Assembly (NCBI GenBank): GCA_013997645.1
Contig: PNKB01000006.1
Span: 1 to 64,000, forward strand
Source: Cyanobacteria bacterium PR.3.49
GTDB lineage: Bacteria > Cyanobacteriota > Vampirovibrionia > Obscuribacterales > Obscuribacteraceae
Length of the DNA stretch: 64,000 nucleotides
Direction of reading: 5' to 3'
How positions within the stretch are numbered: the first letter of the stretch is position 1; each line of letters starts with the position of its first letter. Both the position numbers and the translations under genes were made by a program. The notes below the pieces were generated by a model that saw only the letters and a program-made list of their open reading frames with translations, searched no databases and was not told the DNA's origin. This document shows positions 49,252 to 62,174 of this stretch, in pieces.

Positions 49252-49443
49252 CGGCACTTCAACTTACTAATTGATTGCAAAATCTACTATGCCAGGTACA
49301 ATTATTGAGGCGAATTCTCAGTGATTTTCGTTTCCGATTTTAAATCTATGCACCGCCGGCGACGCCATAGATTGCTTCCAGAGAAATAACACTTGCACCG
49401 TATCTGGCACCAGGAAAAATCAAGAGGCATTGCCGGGTCAACC

Positions 49444-51609
49444 ATGACCGGACGCAAATTTGCCTTCAGCCTTCTTCTGGCACCGCTGATTTGCGGAATG
49501 GTTTTTCCTATTGCTGTATTGCCAGCGCGTTCGGCTGATGAAGGCAGTCCCGCCGATGCGGCCGCAGACGGCAAAACTCTCAAATTCACACCTGATCCGG
49601 CAAGCAATTCCTCTGCAAATGCCAACGATAGAGATGAGAAGGCAGAAAAAGAAACCAAATCATCGAACCGAGCTATAGCGCAAAATAGCTCTAATTCGGC
49701 GAAAGACACTTCTCTTTCCAATTTCTCCTCTGATCCAAATCCTGAAGAAGCAGCCAGAAAGTTAGCTCAGTCACTGGCTAGAAAGCCGAATGTGACGAGT
49801 GTCTCGGGCACCGTGCAAGTTAGGCGGCCATTTAAGCTATTTGCCTCGCAAGAACTTCTGCACAATATGAGCTTTCGCGACATGCCCGCTCGCGAAGTAA
49901 TCGCAGAGCTGGCGCGCCGCGGCAATCTCAATATCATCATCGATAAGTCGGTGGTTGGAAAGATCACCGGCGACCTGAAAGATTTGACTCTCGATGAAGC
50001 AATGGACACGGTGCTTGCTGCTGCCGGATTGCAAAGCCGCAAAGTAGACAACACTGTCATTGTCGGCTCGCCGCAGGCAATGGTGCAACTGGGTTTGAAC
50101 CGACCGGTAGCGCGCGTTTTCAAACTCAGTTATGCGCATCCATATGATGTGGCGATGCTTCTCAATGCATCCGTTTTCAACCGCGGTTATTTCCCCGACT
50201 TCAATATGGAACTGGATCGCAGCGGCGATCTTGGTGTCGATCCTAATGCAGCCGAGCACGGACTGAAAGAAGAATCAAAAAATAGACAGGTCACCAAGCT
50301 GGACACTGAGCGCAAACTCTTGCGCGGGATCAGCAGAAGCCAGACACAAGAAGGAGTCGGCTTCAACAACGCGGCTGTCGATCCAGGCACCCAGCAAATT
50401 CGCACCTTTCAGGAAGTGCCGGTAGACTACAACGTCGATCCTAATGGCGGCTCTACTATCGTTGTTCCAGATGTGAAAAACAGGCAAGTGCTTGTTGTGG
50501 GAACAGTAGAGGATTGCAACGTTGCAGAAGAAGCAATACGAATTCTCGATCGCCGCCCTCGTCAGGTCCATGTGCAGACGTCACTTGTGGAGCTGACCAA
50601 CCAGGGCATCAGGCAGCTAGCCGCTAACGTGAGCACTCAGGGAAGCGGTGTATCGGCTTCTATTTTGGGCAATTCTGCTGCGCCGCTGGTGCGCTACTTG
50701 CCTGGATTGGGGGGGCAGTCGAACAACATGGCCGGCTCCGGATATCAAGTCACCAACAACATCCAATCCGGACTTCAGCTGCCCTTCACCCAATCGGATA
50801 CGCAGGTAGTGCAGACTGCAAACAGCATCGCACCAGCCTCTAACAGTGTTACAAACTTCGCTCCGGCCAATCCATTTACCGGCTTGATCGGAGCAGTCCT
50901 GCCTGTAGCCGCACAGCAGATAGCCGGTGTTTCATCGGTGCCGGCGGCGCAAACTGGAATCAATTTGCTCACCCTGGGCGGGGGCGCTGGCGGCAGGGCC
51001 AATATCGCCACCCTTCCCACAGCGCTGAACATAAGCCTCAACATGCTTTTGCAAACCAACAAAGCCAAGTTGATCGCCAACCCGTCGGTTGTAGTCGTAG
51101 ACAACACAGAATCACTAATTACACTGGCGCAAGAAGTCGTTCACAAAGTCACATCGACAGTTTCACTGGGCGTCGTCACCACCAACGTCGAGTTGACGAA
51201 AGCCGGAATATTCTTGAACGTTCTGCCAAAAACAACGGAAGACGGCTTCATAACGATGCGCCTGAGACCACAAGTATCGACGCCACTGGGAGCGCCACTG
51301 GTTTTCGGCAACCCCAACTTGAACCCGACCATCGTTACTCTGTTGAATATCCGCGACATCATGTCTCAAGAAGTGCGCGTCAAAGATGGCCAGACGCTCG
51401 TCATCGGTGGTTTGTTCACTGAAAATGAAGCGGCAATTCTGGCAAAGGTACCTTACCTGGCAGAAACACCGGTATTGGGTGCACTTTTCAGAAACAGTCT
51501 CAAGGGACGAAACCGCACGGAATTGATGTTGCTCATCACGCCGAAAATCGTGGAAGACGATCCGAATCCTACACAAGTAACGGACAAGCCCGGCTCGCCA
51601 CTGATGTAG
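49444..51609 (+). CDS. secretin of the GspD/PilQ/CpaC type
   Basis: Outer-membrane ring protein of type II secretion, type IV pili or Tad pili. Signal peptide (FAFSLLLAPLICGMVFPIAVLPARSA), a Ser/Asn-rich spacer, an STN-like domain (FRDMPAREVIAELARRGNLNIIID), N-domain repeats (LSYAHPYDVAMLLNASVFN; VPDVKNRQVLVVGTVEDCNVAEEAIRIL), and the secretin channel near the C-terminus (about 540-725 of the ORF) with VRVKDGQTLVIGGLF and KVPYLAETPVLGALFRN. The spacer loop is rich in Asn/Gly/Pro. I begin it at ATG 49444; the ORF-track start is 17 codons earlier. No pilB, pilM or gspE is nearby. Confidence 0.9.
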   Translation: MTGRKFAFSLLLAPLICGMVFPIAVLPARSADEGSPADAAADGKTLKFTPDPASNSSANANDRDEKAEKETKSSNRAIAQNSSNSAKDTSLSNFSSDPNPEEAARKLAQSLARKPNVTSVSGTVQVRRPFKLFASQELLHNMSFRDMPAREVIAELARRGNLNIIIDKSVVGKITGDLKDLTLDEAMDTVLAAAGLQSRKVDNTVIVGSPQAMVQLGLNRPVARVFKLSYAHPYDVAMLLNASVFNRGYFPDFNMELDRSGDLGVDPNAAEHGLKEESKNRQVTKLDTERKLLRGISRSQTQEGVGFNNAAVDPGTQQIRTFQEVPVDYNVDPNGGSTIVVPDVKNRQVLVVGTVEDCNVAEEAIRILDRRPRQVHVQTSLVELTNQGIRQLAANVSTQGSGVSASILGNSAAPLVRYLPGLGGQSNNMAGSGYQVTNNIQSGLQLPFTQSDTQVVQTANSIAPASNSVTNFAPANPFTGLIGAVLPVAAQQIAGVSSVPAAQTGINLLTLGGGAGGRANIATLPTALNISLNMLLQTNKAKLIANPSVVVVDNTESLITLAQEVVHKVTSTVSLGVVTTNVELTKAGIFLNVLPKTTEDGFITMRLRPQVSTPLGAPLVFGNPNLNPTIVTLLNIRDIMSQEVRVKDGQTLVIGGLFTENEAAILAKVPYLAETPVLGALFRNSLKGRNRTELMLLITPKIVEDDPNPTQVTDKPGSPLM

Positions 51610-53943: not shown

Positions 53944-55758
53944 CTAGTGACGTTTTGGTTTTGCCGCCGGCGGTTTTTGAACCAATTGCGTCGGGTTCTT
54001 TAAACCGAAATAGAATTCGAGAATTTGTTTTGCAATCGGTGCGCAAATAGATCCGCCGTGACCGCCGTGCTCTACAAAACAGCACATGGCGATGCGCGGC
54101 TTATCTGCCGGAGCATAGCAGGCGAACCAGGCGTGTGTCTTGCTGCCGGCCGGAGGCGCTTCGGCAGAACCGGTTTTGCCAGCCACTTCGATGCTGCCAA
54201 GCTTGGTGGCGCCGGCGGTACCACTGGCGACTACCGCTTTCAATCCTTCAAGCACGACATTCAAATATTTGGGGTTCATTTTGATTTTTTCTTTAGCCGG
54301 CGGTGGAATCTGCCTGTCTGCAATCTTCATAACAAGATGAAGCCCAGGCACCTGCCCGCGCATACCAAACGCCCCGAAAATACGAGCGCCTTGAGCCGGA
54401 GTTACCTGTGTAAATGTCTGACCGATCGACATGTGCAGCGTATTGCCGGGATACCACTTCTCTTTCAAAACACGCAATTTCCAGGCCGAATCCGGAACCA
54501 GTCCGGAATTTTCGTGACGCAACTCTACGCCGGTCGGACGGCCGGCGCCGAATTTGACACCCCAGTCTTTGATCATCTCAGGCGTCATTTTCAGACCCAT
54601 CTGATAGAAAGCTGAGTCTCTAGACCAGGCAAGGCATTTGACTAGATCGAAAAGCCCGGTGCTGTGCGTCCAGTCACCGAAGAAGAAGCCACCAAGACTG
54701 ATACCACCAGAGACGTGCAATTTGGTGTCCGGTTTGACCACTTTATTTTCAAGTGCAGCAATAAGGGTGATAGCCTTCCAGATAGAGCCCGGTGGAAAGC
54801 CTGACAGAGCACGGTTGTGCATGGGGTGAGTCGGTGCGTTGATCTTCTTCCATACGGCAGGCGTTATACGGCGCGTGAAGACATTTGGATCGAAACTTGG
54901 TCTTGATACCATGGCCAGAACCTCACCGGTTTGCGGATCAATTGCCACCACTGCTCCGGACTTGTCGCCCAGAGCATTCCAGGCGGCTCTTTGCAGATCG
55001 AGATCAAGAGACAGAACAATCGGCTCTCCGGCTTGCGATTCTTTTGTAATGACCGGTTTGGCCGTTTCTTTGGAGAGCGACGTGCCCATGGCATTTACTG
55101 CTACGCGTTGCTCTCCATCCACTCCGCGCAACTGCACATCATACAATCGCTCGATTCCGTCTTGACCGACTACGTCGCCCATGCGCCTTTCCGGACGCGT
55201 TTCCAGCTGCTTCGATGTGATTTCCCCGCAGTATCCAAGCACATGAGCGCATAATTCCCCGTGTGGATAACTGCGCGAGACGTCCGCCAAAATGTCGATG
55301 CCGGGCAGGAAGAGTCGATTCTCATAGAAATTAGACACCACCTTCATGTCCACGTCATGCTCGATTACATAAGGCAGAACTGCATGAGAAGCTTTGGCCT
55401 TCATCAGCTGCGCGTGCACCTTTTGAACTGGCAAGTCGAGAACTTTCGAGAGACGAATGGAAAGATCGGACAGGTGTTCGATCTGATTGGGAATTGCCAC
55501 CATAGACAGTGACTGCTTGTTGGTGGCAAGCAGATTGCCATGCCGGTCATAAATAATTCCGCGTGGCGCGCGCAGAAAAGTAACTCGCGTGGAATTGTCG
55601 ACCGCGCGTGCTTTGTAATATTTGTTCTGCAGGATTTGCAGCCAGAAAAGGCGAGCTACCAGAGCTGTCATGCACAAACTGATGACGACGAGAAGCACGA
55701 CCATTTTGCCGGTCGTCTCGAAAGGTGGTGTCTTAAGTGGTGATGACGAAGTTATCAC
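53944..55758 (-). CDS. mrdA: penicillin-binding protein 2
   Basis: Transpeptidase of the rod complex (class B PBP), 604 residues. An N-terminal membrane helix (MVVLLVVISLCMTALVARLFW) precedes the pedestal (APRGIIYDRHGNLLATN). The penicillin-binding domain has SIWK in FPPGSIWKAITL as the active-site SxxK, SRDSAFYQ as an SxN-like site with D in the second position, and KTGSAEAPP for KTG. The domain order and its place after mreBCD identify PBP2 rather than FtsI. Starts 5 bp after mreD. Confidence 0.93.
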   Translation of the reverse strand: MITSSSPLKTPPFETTGKMVVLLVVISLCMTALVARLFWLQILQNKYYKARAVDNSTRVTFLRAPRGIIYDRHGNLLATNKQSLSMVAIPNQIEHLSDLSIRLSKVLDLPVQKVHAQLMKAKASHAVLPYVIEHDVDMKVVSNFYENRLFLPGIDILADVSRSYPHGELCAHVLGYCGEITSKQLETRPERRMGDVVGQDGIERLYDVQLRGVDGEQRVAVNAMGTSLSKETAKPVITKESQAGEPIVLSLDLDLQRAAWNALGDKSGAVVAIDPQTGEVLAMVSRPSFDPNVFTRRITPAVWKKINAPTHPMHNRALSGFPPGSIWKAITLIAALENKVVKPDTKLHVSGGISLGGFFFGDWTHSTGLFDLVKCLAWSRDSAFYQMGLKMTPEMIKDWGVKFGAGRPTGVELRHENSGLVPDSAWKLRVLKEKWYPGNTLHMSIGQTFTQVTPAQGARIFGAFGMRGQVPGLHLVMKIADRQIPPPAKEKIKMNPKYLNVVLEGLKAVVASGTAGATKLGSIEVAGKTGSAEAPPAGSKTHAWFACYAPADKPRIAMCCFVEHGGHGGSICAPIAKQILEFYFGLKNPTQLVQKPPAAKPKRH

Positions 55759-55763
55759 TGCTG

Positions 55764-56369
55764 TTATTCTCTGACGTCACGGCTGGTAAAAAACTCGAAC
55801 CAGGCGCGCATTGGAAAGTAGATAAATGGCGCGATGAGCGAATTGAGAATGGCCTCGGGAAAAGCAATTTCGGCCAGGCGAGGCAATACTTCCGGACGCC
55901 CAATCATATGCAATTGCAGGGCTGTTATCGACTCGGCAAAGACTGTTCCACCCAGAACCAGGGGAATACAAAGCAAAGTCGCTTTGTTGAAACTCTTGAG
56001 CGAGAAATAGCCGGCCAGCCAACCTACAAGCGGATACGAAACAGGGTAAATCGGCAACATCGTCAAATAGAAAGATGCGAATATGGCACCGATAATAAGA
56101 CCGCTTACGGATCCGGAAGCGATTTGCATCATGATCGCCTGATCCACCGGTTGCATTCGTAATTCCTCAGGCGTCGGCTTTCGCAAAGGTGAGCCGAAAA
56201 CAGCTCCCCAGGTAATCGTTATCGCCAGAGGCAAACTGCACAGAACCGTGTCCAGCGACAGTTTTGTCAACACAGTCACTTGAAGCAACCAGGCAAAGAC
56301 GACTATCAGCCCGGCGAATCCGATTTCGCCAAGGCGCTTTCTAGCTCTGATCGACATGAGCTGAATCAC
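55764..56369 (-). CDS. mreD: rod-shape protein MreD
   Basis: Integral membrane partner of MreC, 201 residues with about five or six helices (IGFAGLIVVFAWLLQVTVL, VSGLIIGAIFASFYLTMLP, KATLLCIPLVLGGTVFAES). The sequence is weakly conserved, and the call rests on hydrophobicity and position between mreC and mrdA. It begins 2 bp after the mreC stop. Confidence 0.82.
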   Translation of the reverse strand: MIQLMSIRARKRLGEIGFAGLIVVFAWLLQVTVLTKLSLDTVLCSLPLAITITWGAVFGSPLRKPTPEELRMQPVDQAIMMQIASGSVSGLIIGAIFASFYLTMLPIYPVSYPLVGWLAGYFSLKSFNKATLLCIPLVLGGTVFAESITALQLHMIGRPEVLPRLAEIAFPEAILNSLIAPFIYFPMRAWFEFFTSRDVRE

Positions 56370-56371
56370 GA

Positions 56372-57172
56372 CTACATCCCCAGTGGCGGAAGAATCAGCA
56401 CCTGACTCAAATCGTAACAGTTTTCGCTGAGCTTAACTTCGATCTGCATGGAGGCGCCGTTCGTATCGCGCCTGACGCCGACAACCGTCCCTACCGGGTG
56501 ATTTTCAGGGAAGGTGCCGCCTTTACCCAGGCAGCTGACTTTCTCTCCGACATCCACGTTGGTGCCGACCGGTACCCAGTCTATTTTGGCCTGTTTCTGG
56601 AAATTTCCCGAAAGAATGCCGGTGACGCCTGTTTTTTTTAAAACAACACCGAGTTTCATATCAGGGTCGGTGAGCAATTTCACAACCGACGCATGTTCGC
56701 TGACTTTCACGACTTGCCCGACCACACCGTCCGAGGTAATCACGGCAGAGCCTTCGGTAATGCCCTCATGCGTGCCTTTGTCGACAGTTATTTGCTCGAA
56801 CCAGTTGTCCGGGTTGCGGGCGATTACATCGGCGGCAATCGTCTTTCTGTCTGCTTTCTCGCGCAAGCCCAAAAGCAAGCGCAGCTTATTAGTGTCGCGC
56901 GATTGCTGTTTGTATTTGGTCAGCTCAAGCTCTGACTTGGCCAGCTTTTCTTCCAGAGTCTTGATTCTCTCGGACGATTCGATAAGCTTCTCGGCCAAAT
57001 TCTTCGTCGATTCGACCTGGGTGGCGCCTTTTGTAAAAACAGAGCTGATCCAGGTTTGCGTGGATAAAACCGTGCCGCGAACCGGTCCGGCAATCATCCA
57101 GACGAGTATCAGAAAAAAGACAACCTCAGCGATCGCCTCAGAATCAAGGTTTCCCTGGTTCTGGGATGCCAC
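56372..57172 (-). CDS. mreC: rod-shape protein MreC
   Basis: Periplasmic scaffold of the rod complex, 266 residues: one N-terminal membrane helix (EAIAEVVFFLILVWMIAGPVRG), a coiled coil (about 60-100, IESSERIKTLEEKLAKSELELTKYK) and two beta domains with VITSDGVVGQVVKVSEHASVVKLLTDPD. Starts 12 bp after mreB. Length normal. Confidence 0.9.
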   Translation of the reverse strand: MASQNQGNLDSEAIAEVVFFLILVWMIAGPVRGTVLSTQTWISSVFTKGATQVESTKNLAEKLIESSERIKTLEEKLAKSELELTKYKQQSRDTNKLRLLLGLREKADRKTIAADVIARNPDNWFEQITVDKGTHEGITEGSAVITSDGVVGQVVKVSEHASVVKLLTDPDMKLGVVLKKTGVTGILSGNFQKQAKIDWVPVGTNVDVGEKVSCLGKGGTFPENHPVGTVVGVRRDTNGASMQIEVKLSENCYDLSQVLILPPLGM

Positions 57173-57184
57173 CAGTCAAGTCTC

Positions 57185-58219
57185 CTAACTTTCGCAAAGT
57201 GCGCTTGCCAGCACGCGGCGGTACGCCGGATCAGTAAGCATTTTGCCGGTACCAATTGCCACGCCGGAGAGCGGATCTTCGGCAATCAAAACCGGCACTT
57301 CAGTCTCATTGGATATGAGCTCGTCGAGCCCCTGCAAAAGAGCTCCGCCGCCAGTGAGCATGATGCCGCGATCATAGATATCGGCGGCTAATTCCGGCGG
57401 GCAACGTTCGAGCGTGCGACGCACAGCCTCAACCACCCGCGTCAAAGTTTCCGTCATCGCCTCGCGAACTTCCCCACGACTGATTGTGACGGTACGCGGC
57501 AATCCGTTTATCAAGTTCAAGCCGCGTACTTCATAACGATCGTTCTCGACAGTTTTGTATGCAGAGCCCAAACGGAATTTTATTTCTTCAGCCGTGCGCT
57601 CCCCAATGGCCAGCGAGTGCACCTTCTTCAAATAGCGAATGATCGCTTCATTCAATTCATCGCCGGCAACACGCAGCGATTCGTTCACGACAATCCCGGA
57701 AAGAGAAATTACAGCCACTTCGGTGGTACCACCGCCGATATCAACGATCATTGAACCGGTCGCCTCGGCAACAGGCAATCCGGATCCGATTGCAGCCGCC
57801 ATCGGCTCTTCGGGCAAATATGTTTGTCCGGCGCCGGCACTGCGAGCGGCTTGCCTGACGGCATTGCGCTCTACATCGGTAATTCCGCATGGCACGCCGA
57901 TAGCCAGATCGGGAGCCATCCAACCGCGGTTGCCGTTGAGCACGCGGCTGAGGAATTCTTTGAGCATGTATTCGGCGTATTTGAATTCGGCAATGACGCC
58001 GTCTCTCAGCGGTCTTGTCGCCCGCACGCCCTGAGGTGTACGGCCCAGCATCGCTCTGGCTTCCTCACCAACAGCCCGGACTGAATTGGTCAGATCGTCA
58101 ACAGCGACGACTGAAGGCTCACGCAGGACAATGCCCTGCTTGTCGACATAGATCAGAGTGTTGGCGGTGCCGAGATCGACACCGATGCCTCTGCGAATAT
58201 AGTTCTTGAACAAGCCCAC
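57185..58219 (-). CDS. mreB: rod-shape actin-like protein MreB
   Basis: Actin homologue that guides lateral wall synthesis. The 344 residues contain GIGVDLGTANTLIYV (phosphate 1), DIGGGTTEVAVISL (phosphate 2) and MLTGGGALLQGL (adenosine region). First of mreB-mreC-mreD-mrdA, with gaps of 12, 2 and 5 bp. hfq is 118 bp upstream on the same strand and may share its promoter. Confidence 0.97.
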   Translation of the reverse strand: MGLFKNYIRRGIGVDLGTANTLIYVDKQGIVLREPSVVAVDDLTNSVRAVGEEARAMLGRTPQGVRATRPLRDGVIAEFKYAEYMLKEFLSRVLNGNRGWMAPDLAIGVPCGITDVERNAVRQAARSAGAGQTYLPEEPMAAAIGSGLPVAEATGSMIVDIGGGTTEVAVISLSGIVVNESLRVAGDELNEAIIRYLKKVHSLAIGERTAEEIKFRLGSAYKTVENDRYEVRGLNLINGLPRTVTISRGEVREAMTETLTRVVEAVRRTLERCPPELAADIYDRGIMLTGGGALLQGLDELISNETEVPVLIAEDPLSGVAIGTGKMLTDPAYRRVLASALCES

Positions 58220-58337: not shown

Positions 58338-58559
58338 CTAAGTGGTGACGGGTCTATATCCGATCACACCACTTTTCAGCAAAGTCAGAGGCTTTTCGTC
58401 ATCCATTGTGAGGGCGAAAGCATGCTCGTCGAACCAACGCAAACTGCCGGAAAAGCGCTCACCACCAACTGCCAGGAATTCAAGGCGCACCTTGTCGCGG
58501 ACGTATTGTTCCAACTGAGCAACACTGGGACCTTTGCCTCCGTGCTCTCTTGCGCTCAT
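58338..58559 (-). CDS. hfq: Hfq, cyanobacterial type
   Basis: Small Sm-like protein of 73 residues. GPSVAQLEQYVRDK gives the N-terminal helix; VRLEFLAVGGERFSGSLRWFDEHAFAL gives the Sm1 strands, and GVIGYRP ends the Sm2 part. The pattern PSVxQ ... GxxxxGxxRW/D ... IxYxxP matches Hfq of cyanobacteria more than the proteobacterial YKHA type. I start it at ATG 58559, preceded by AGGAGG five bases away; the ORF-track start is 25 codons earlier. The cyanobacterial protein acts with the type IV pilus ATPase and binds RNA poorly; the function here is inferred. Confidence 0.8.
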   Translation of the reverse strand: MSAREHGGKGPSVAQLEQYVRDKVRLEFLAVGGERFSGSLRWFDEHAFALTMDDEKPLTLLKSGVIGYRPVTT

Positions 58560-58594
58560 CTTTGCCTCCTGCCGACTGCCTTTCAGAGAGGACG

Positions 58595-58625
58595 ATATTA
58601 GCAGGATTGGCAGCCATGGTTGCCA
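58595..58625 (-). promoter_or_regulatory. candidate hfq promoter with near-palindromic site
   Basis: On the minus strand TAATAT (58595-58600) is a possible -10, about 40 bp before the hfq start. Just upstream, TGGCA-A-CCATGG-C-TGCCA (58608-58625) is an 18-bp near-perfect palindrome in the usual place for an operator. The -35 is not clear. Confidence 0.35.
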
Positions 58626-58755
58626 GGAAGACAAAACAACTTCCGTAATAACCCTGAGCTTTCTTCAGTGCCTGCATAATTCCGGCGCTCGCCCAACTTG
58701 AGGAGAATCTAATTTATCCGGTCATCAAGACCTCGAGGTTACGGGAGAGAATCGC

Positions 58756-59235
58756 TTGCAAGAAAAGGCACCGGGAAAAAGAACGCCATTGATGGCATTC
58801 AAGGCTTTTGCCTTTGTTTTGCTTTTGATCGTCCTCACCTCTTTCGTCAATGCGCAGTACGCACGCGCTGTCGGCACATACAAACTACTGGCGCCCTATT
58901 CAAGAGAGATCGGGCATCCTGTCAAAAAACTGGTGAAGGCAAGGTTCTACCGGGGCGATATGGTCAATTCATATCAGCCTTCGCAATTCGCCATAACCGT
59001 CCTTTGTCCAAAAGAACTCGCTCTTTTGATCAAGCAAGTGGCACGGGGAATACACCTGTGCGGACTTATAGCCGGCACATTTCGCATGCTCTCAGGTGCA
59101 GCCGGCATAAAGGTTTCACCGCGGTCGTCCTTTCAATCGATACTGCTCGGTGCCACTGCATTTGGTTGCGCGCTGGCAGCGCCGACTTATATACGCGGAC
59201 TGGCAATATGGTCATTAGGATACGCGCCTTTTTAA
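58756..59235 (+). CDS. small membrane protein of unknown function
   Basis: Protein of 159 residues, family not recognised. A first helix (FKAFAFVLLLIVLTSFVNA) is followed by a basic stretch (GHPVKKLVKARFY) and two more hydrophobic segments (ALLIKQVARGIHLCGLIAGT; ILLGATAFGCALAA). TTG start with GGGAGAG about 9 bases upstream. Divergent from hfq. The stop codon lies inside a strong hairpin. Confidence 0.5.
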   Translation: MQEKAPGKRTPLMAFKAFAFVLLLIVLTSFVNAQYARAVGTYKLLAPYSREIGHPVKKLVKARFYRGDMVNSYQPSQFAITVLCPKELALLIKQVARGIHLCGLIAGTFRMLSGAAGIKVSPRSSFQSILLGATAFGCALAAPTYIRGLAIWSLGYAPF

Positions 59236-60896: not shown

Positions 60897-62174
60897 ATGA
60901 GTACCTTCACCATAGTCTTTCTGACCACGATGCTGATTGTGTGCCTGACTGGGCTTACACATGTTTTCCTGGCACGCTTCCGGCGCGTTGGCACGCCCAT
61001 CATTCCTGCCGAGCAATTGCCTTTTGTCTCGGTGATTATCCCGGCCCGCAACGAAGAAACAAAAATTGCCCGATGCCTGGAATCCCTTGCGCAGCAAGAC
61101 TATCCAAATTACGAGATCGTCATCATCGACGACCGCTCGACGGACAGAACGGGCGAGATTATTCAAGAAATTGCCGACCGCTTCCCGCACATCAAATTTG
61201 TTAAAGGGCGCGAAACGCCCACCGGCTGGATTGGTAAGTGCAACGCCCTGGTTCAAGCTTATCCTCACGCCACAGGCAATTGGCTTGTCTTTGCCGACGC
61301 CGACACCTGCCATCAACCGCATTCCCTGCGTCGAGCGGTCGACTACGCGATCATCAACAAAGTGGACATGGTCAGCTTCATGCCTCTTCAGGAATTGAAG
61401 ACTTTCTGGGAACAAGTCGTATCGCCGGTTTTGCTCGGTTCATTTCTCGCCGGCGACCCGCTCAACAGCGTCAATGATCCCGATCATGTGCGCGCTTACG
61501 CTTACGGTCAGTACATTTTGATTTCCAGGAATGCCTACGAGACAGTCGGCACCCACAGAGCCGTGCACGATCAAATCCTCGATGACATCATGCTTGCCCA
61601 GCGCGTCAAAGGAAGCGGGTTTCACATCAACGCAGCGGACGGCTGCACGCTCTACAGCGTGCGCATGTATCAGGACCTCGAATCGCTCTGGTACGGCTGG
61701 ACCAAGAACGCTTACGCTTTAATAGAATGCAGGCTTGTCTATCTGGCTATGATCCTGCTTCTGATTAACGGAGCAATCATCTCGCCCTTCATTCACCTGT
61801 CCATCCTCTGCCAGGGAGTCGCCGCCGGCAATCCGCCGCACATCTTCCTTTATATAGCACCGCTTGTAGCCGTCGAATTCATCTTTATGGGTGCCTGGTA
61901 TGGGCGCACAAAACAGTACTACGAGGGCGCCCGCTGGTATCACTTCTTTTTGCTGCCGCTCGGCTGCGTGATGGTAACGGCAATTTATTTGCGTTCGGCG
62001 TATCTAGTTTTGTCCAAGAACAATGTTTCATGGAAAGGCCGACACTACGTGGTCAACACTCACAAAACTATCGAGCCCCAGCCGAGCGTTACATCAAACC
62101 CAGCCGAAGCCATGCCGATTGACGGGCTTTCCGTTTTTGAAACAACATCAGCTCCGGAGCTGATGAGAAAGTAA
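60897..62174 (+). CDS. membrane GT2 glycosyltransferase, HpnB/CrtQ-like
   Basis: Family 2 glycosyltransferase of 425 residues with an N-terminal helix (FLTTMLIVCLTGLTHVFLA), PFVSVIIPARNEETKIARCLES, VIIDDRSTDRT, VFADADTCH, LDDIMLAQRVK (acceptor aspartates), and three C-terminal helices. The GWIGKCNALVQAY part resembles HpnB (hopanoid) and carotenoid glycosyltransferases. It lacks the RQRRW motif of the neighbour, so it is likely non-processive. No hopanoid or carotenoid genes are in the window, so the acceptor is open. ATG at 60897; no clear Shine-Dalgarno. Confidence 0.85.
   Translation: MSTFTIVFLTTMLIVCLTGLTHVFLARFRRVGTPIIPAEQLPFVSVIIPARNEETKIARCLESLAQQDYPNYEIVIIDDRSTDRTGEIIQEIADRFPHIKFVKGRETPTGWIGKCNALVQAYPHATGNWLVFADADTCHQPHSLRRAVDYAIINKVDMVSFMPLQELKTFWEQVVSPVLLGSFLAGDPLNSVNDPDHVRAYAYGQYILISRNAYETVGTHRAVHDQILDDIMLAQRVKGSGFHINAADGCTLYSVRMYQDLESLWYGWTKNAYALIECRLVYLAMILLLINGAIISPFIHLSILCQGVAAGNPPHIFLYIAPLVAVEFIFMGAWYGRTKQYYEGARWYHFFLLPLGCVMVTAIYLRSAYLVLSKNNVSWKGRHYVVNTHKTIEPQPSVTSNPAEAMPIDGLSVFETTSAPELMRK

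Follow-up and report, generated by a model that had tools for sequence, protein, structure and literature searches.

The gene studied here encodes an Sm-fold Hfq of the cyanobacterial type. It lies in a stretch of 64,000 nucleotides (the window) of contig PNKB01000006.1 from Cyanobacteria bacterium PR.3.49 (genome G000), which belongs to an Obscuribacterales family (f1, with f2 as sister family) in the class Vampirovibrionia, non-photosynthetic sisters of Cyanobacteria. Across the genomes compared, the presence of hfq follows that of the pilus ATPase PilB and of a type IV pilus (T4P) secretin, and not that of the mre genes. By analogy with cyanobacteria, this Hfq is probably of the PilB-binding type: it would dock on the PilB tail and be needed for pilus assembly, instead of serving chiefly as an sRNA chaperone. 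Its position beside mreB would be inherited.

Start, family and fold of the hfq gene

The mechanical open reading frame at this locus (98 aa) begins at a TTG and encloses the 73-aa hfq frame (Table 1). We place the start of the gene at the ATG (58559) and not at the TTG (58634), because an AGGAGG motif lies 5 nt upstream of the ATG, the same ATG and motif were found in six further hfq copies of the genus (L002-L006 and L027, with a shorter motif match in L007), and the 25-codon extension was different in relatives or, in several of them, absent. An earlier, sequence-only reading had already set these 25 codons apart from the protein, and this was borne out. Consensus scans for promoters and terminators around hfq yielded no more than expected by chance, and no signal separating hfq from mreB.

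Table 1. Features of the hfq locus in the window, and the PilB gene of the same genome
Feature	Position	Strand	Basis or remark
hfq, cyanobacterial-type, 73 aa, ATG start	58338..58559	-	PF21979, 40 bits; best structure match 3hfo
Shine-Dalgarno AGGAGG of hfq	58565..58570	-	sequence; conserved across genus
25-codon upstream extension of mechanical ORF (TTG), outside the protein	58560..58634	-	TTG without Shine-Dalgarno; not conserved
mreB	57185..58219	-	NF010539, 482 bits; PF06723, 457 bits
mreC	56372..57172	-	PF04085, TIGR00219
mreD	55764..56369	-	TIGR03426, 35.5 bits
pbp2/mrdA	53944..55758	-	TIGR03423, 554 bits
GT2 glycosyltransferase, HpnB/CruG-like	60897..62174	+	in many other genera, orthologue precedes hfq by 21-161 bp, same strand
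T4P-type secretin, PilQ-like	49393..51609	+	PF00263; TIGR02515 subthreshold
159-aa ORF, divergent from hfq	58756-59235	+	no Pfam/NCBIfam match
PilB (L092), outside the window	G000:C91:11574-13334		

The window protein matched the Pfam family Hfq_1 (PF21979) over residues 11-69, above the gathering cut-off of 27 bits, and scored below the cut-offs of the classical Hfq models PF17209 (15.3 bits) and TIGR02383 (13.3 bits). On the NCBIfam model Hfq_rel_Cyano (NF047718) it reached 37.5 bits, under the curated cut-off of 52. A phmmer search against the PDB returned 3hfo_A (Synechocystis Ssr3341) as the best hit (E 2e-4), along with 3hfn (Anabaena Asl2047). An AlphaFold2 model based on seven homologues (pLDDT 83) consisted of one helix and five strands, and Foldseek ranked 3hfo_A first against it (TM 0.78/0.87; rmsd 1.1). 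The cyanobacterial style that had been read from the letters was thus recovered by both profile and structure. As a marker of lineage, for which the gene had also been put forward, it is weak: the genome does belong to Obscuribacterales, but Hfq_1 occurs in true Cyanobacteria and, as a control search indicated, also matches the Hfq of Caulobacter. The closest named records carrying hfq were Candidatus Melainabacteria, Candidatus Obscuribacter and Candidatus Obscuribacterales MAGs.

The f1 Hfq is related to the cyanobacterial type but has diverged from it, and is not a copy. With the cyanobacterial proteins (Ssr3341, Asl2047; PF21979) it shares the Sm fold, with 3HFO as best match, a PS-x-x-x-(L/V/I)Q helix, a conserved W-x-D, the loss of the proximal RNA residues and the presence of a tetra-Cys-tailed PilB in the same genome. 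It differs from them by having RWFD where they have WQD, L in place of W at the position of E. coli Y55, an identity of only about 18-28% (tblastn), a score below the NCBIfam cut-off, and mreB instead of dapF beside the gene. In comparison with canonical Hfq (E. coli, PF17209), the Sm fold, F39-D40 and R17 are common to both, whereas the window protein has no YKHA motif, reaches only 15 bits on the family model and is encoded in another gene neighbourhood.

Within the genus, Hfq was about 63-96% identical, against 95-99% for MreB, an unusually rapid divergence for a protein of the Sm type next to a slow gene. Faster divergence than in the neighbouring mreB might point to a relic without present function, but the reading frame was intact and free of stops in 40/40 Hfq-bearing genomes, the P-S, G, W and D residues were conserved, and so were the start and Shine-Dalgarno sequence in the genus; we therefore regard a relic as extremely unlikely.

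Two further records deserve mention. The G003 MAG carried two hfq loci (L029 and L030) on separate contigs, with 78% and 75% identity and the same upstream flanking genes, which probably represent two strains in one bin. A MAG contig labelled Chloroflexi (L031, SBAT01000302.1) carried an Obscuribacterales-type hfq-mreBCD locus with an MreB 78% identical, and this label is likely wrong.

Linkage to mreB and distribution across genomes

In the window, hfq runs in the same direction as mreB-mreC-mreD-pbp2, with a gap of 118 nt before mreB. The predicted linkage was found in relatives: of the 40 f1 genomes with Hfq, 39 had hfq in front of mreB and in the same orientation, at a distance of 92-557 bp, a recurrence that argues against chance. 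In the exception, G012, hfq was on contig 13 and mreB on contig 1, with GT2 still 54 bp from hfq. Many f1 genera exhibited the order GT2-hfq-mreB-mreC-mreD-pbp2. In the genus to which the window belongs, GT2 and hfq were separated by a second GT2 gene and the 159-aa ORF. This ORF was observed in that genus only, 60-70% identical in most members and 35% in G001. In cyanobacteria, all six loci that were read completely had dapF (recognised from sequence) next to hfq, and none of 30 loci showed an mreB within 1.5 kb of hfq; linkage to mreB thus characterises f1 and not this Hfq type.

All 50 genomes of f1 were searched, and Hfq_1 was found in 40 of them. In a sample of 194 genomes, it was detected in no other family of the class. 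Among 60 relatives no classical Hfq was found, the only PF17209 matches being the same Hfq_1 genes, and the window's genome contained no second Hfq. Seven genomes possessed GT2-mreB-mreC-mreD without hfq, namely five from f1 (G009, G011, G027, G031 and G032, representing three genera) and two from f2 (G036 and G037), and no hfq was found elsewhere in any of them. All seven were devoid of full-length PilB, and the orthologue of the window's T4P secretin was absent from the six that were tested (6/6).

Conversely, full-length PilB was present in 38 of the 40 Hfq-bearing f1 genomes; the two others, G086 (83% complete) and G121 (77% complete), have genus mates with PilB. Four genomes had PilB and no hfq. 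One of these, G025, has a contig that begins within mreB, and in the other three (G015, G024 and G035), whose PilB was tailed, the entire GT2-hfq-mre-pbp2 block was missing. These four are thus uninformative or cases of block loss, with true hfq loss possible in G015, G024 and G035. G015, which is 98% complete and has two tailed PilBs, lacked GT2-hfq-mreBCD-pbp2 through either an assembly gap or a loss of the rod-shape machinery.

The association of hfq with PilB was significant by Fisher's test when relatedness was ignored (p 3e-4 for all 50 f1 genomes; p 1.7e-5 for those with the locus visible). On the MreB tree, at least three independent hfq losses were identified and 3/3 coincided with PilB loss, a number that leaves the sign test underpowered (p 0.25).

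The sequence-only reading had supposed that Hfq might link pili or other surface structures to cell-shape genes. A partnership of Hfq with MreB or cell-wall elongation, by which pili or the envelope would be tied to shape, would accord with the close, co-directional placement described above and with the joint absence of hfq and the mre block from G015, G024 and G035. However, the mreBCD order was kept without hfq in seven genomes, hfq lay apart from mreB in G012, mreB was not near hfq in any of the 30 cyanobacteria, and the two genes differed widely in conservation within the genus. The supposition is not supported: the linkage is confined to f1, and hfq is missing from the GT2-mreBCD locus in pilus-less genomes. 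We consider such a partnership very unlikely, and find no support for a specific role in cell shape. A functional hfq-mreB unit was consequently rejected on the basis of the seven genomes, the cyanobacterial loci and G012. Because these seven genomes keep GT2-mreBCD and lack both hfq and full-length PilB, linkage to mreB is not indicative of function, and we propose that the place of hfq before mreB is an inherited neighbourhood and not a partnership.

The PilQ-like secretin and mreB were likewise rejected as a conserved unit, being about 7 kb apart in G000 and G006, and elsewhere 35 kb to several hundred kb apart or on different contigs.

The tetra-cysteine tail of PilB

In Synechocystis, Hfq binds the C-terminal tetra-cysteine, zinc-finger-like domain of PilB1, which is found in cyanobacterial PilB1 and absent from PilB2 and other bacterial PilBs (PMC4390875), and pili require Hfq (PMC4390875; PMC12288463). 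A partner of the kind expected from these cyanobacteria was present in the window's own genome: its PilB ends in the tail ICTGCCAEIQGEWSRCPYCQEPR, with the spacing and residues of the cyanobacterial LTCRTCAAELQPDWMDCPYCLTPRF. The terminal tetra-Cys ribbon with cyanobacterial spacing was observed in 45/45 f1 PilBs and 18/18 cyanobacterial PilB1s, and in none of 19 PilBs from the Hfq-less families of the class (f3, f4, f5, f7 and f8) or of four PilB2-like proteins. With an HMM built from the 18 cyanobacterial tails, the genome's own PilB scored 20.6 bits (E 1.3e-6), against at most 3.2 bits for the PilBs of Hfq-less families and the PilB2-like proteins; a few f1 PilB copies scored as low as 3.7 bits and were assigned by the spacing pattern.

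In a midpoint-rooted tree of the PilB core, from which the tail had been removed, f1 PilB and cyanobacterial PilB1 formed one group (support 100/99), separate from the remaining Vampirovibrionia PilBs. From the sequences, this grouping may reflect either vertical descent or ancient exchange.

The f1 PilB tail was longer, with a double zinc ribbon (DZR; PF12773, 41.6 bits) preceding the terminal ribbon. The C-terminus of the genome's own PilB consisted of three consecutive zinc ribbons, i.e., the DZR and the cyanobacterial-type terminal one, the two extra ribbons being family-specific. Moreover, tandem PilB pairs were observed at G015:C21 and G029:C13 (also in G136 and G142), both members being cysteine-tailed and the second having a less conserved terminal ribbon.

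EbsA is the third partner of the PilB-Hfq complex in cyanobacteria. Compared on Hfq and PilB, the f1 proteins resemble this pilus-base complex in the co-occurrence of Hfq with a tetra-Cys, PilB1-type ATPase, and differ from it in the two additional zinc ribbons of PilB.

RNA-binding residues, proposed function and significance

Residues were numbered after E. coli Hfq, whose sequence was checked by its PDB match. Among the proximal RNA residues, the window protein exhibited the replacements Q8>A, Q41>E, Y55>L and H57>S, and it retained F39, D40 and R17, together with a Lys at rim position 19. The residue before F39/Q, which is S38 in E. coli, was W in 30/30 cyanobacteria and in 24 of 25 f1 proteins.

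An ordinary RNA chaperone, pairing sRNAs with mRNAs and perhaps regulating mre or pilus transcripts, would fit with the Sm fold that all Hfqs have, the retention of Arg17, the rim Lys and F39-D40 as in E. coli, the status of this protein as the sole Hfq of the genome and the match of Hfq_1 to Caulobacter Hfq. In contrast, four proximal-face residues are replaced, RNA binding is poor in cyanobacterial Hfqs that have lost comparable residues (PMC10989914), the presence of Hfq is not general but tracks PilB, and Hfq_1 is absent from the other sampled families of the class. We infer that this Hfq has lost RNA chaperone function; an sRNA-chaperone role for the window protein is possible but less likely, and we rate the ordinary chaperone as unlikely.

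In the preferred reading, that of a PilB-binding Hfq, the docking site of the hexameric Sm ring would be the tetra-cysteine zinc ribbon at the C-terminus of PilB, the pilus extension ATPase, where the pilus is anchored in the inner membrane. On the analogy of Synechocystis, S. elongatus and Nostoc, Hfq at this site would be needed for pilus assembly or extension, and would not serve mainly as an sRNA chaperone. Both the physical binding of PilB and the need for Hfq in pilus extension are drawn from this analogy.

Descriptions to date treat pilus-base Hfq as peculiar to cyanobacteria, and pilus-base proteins are tied to phototaxis in reviews. A literature search outside the subscription literature found no papers on Hfq in Melainabacteria or Vampirovibrio. 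What is new is that, in a non-photosynthetic family, Hfq is paired and jointly lost with a tetra-Cys PilB, as a variant of a known module. More tentatively, the Hfq-PilB zinc-ribbon module may be older than photosynthesis in the phylum, a possibility that we hold to be real but rather doubtful. It would then have been present in the ancestor of Cyanobacteria and Vampirovibrionia and have survived in a single non-photosynthetic family, where PilB gained two further ribbons that may bind more partners or more Hfq.

The conserved neighbourhood of mreB calls for caution in inferring function from it. If the proposed function is correct, the tetra-Cys ribbon would be the part of interest in the Hfq-PilB pairing, and the relatives without hfq and PilB would be natural knock-outs for comparative work. 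The pair in non-photosynthetic relatives would moreover mean that its function is separable from light-directed motility.
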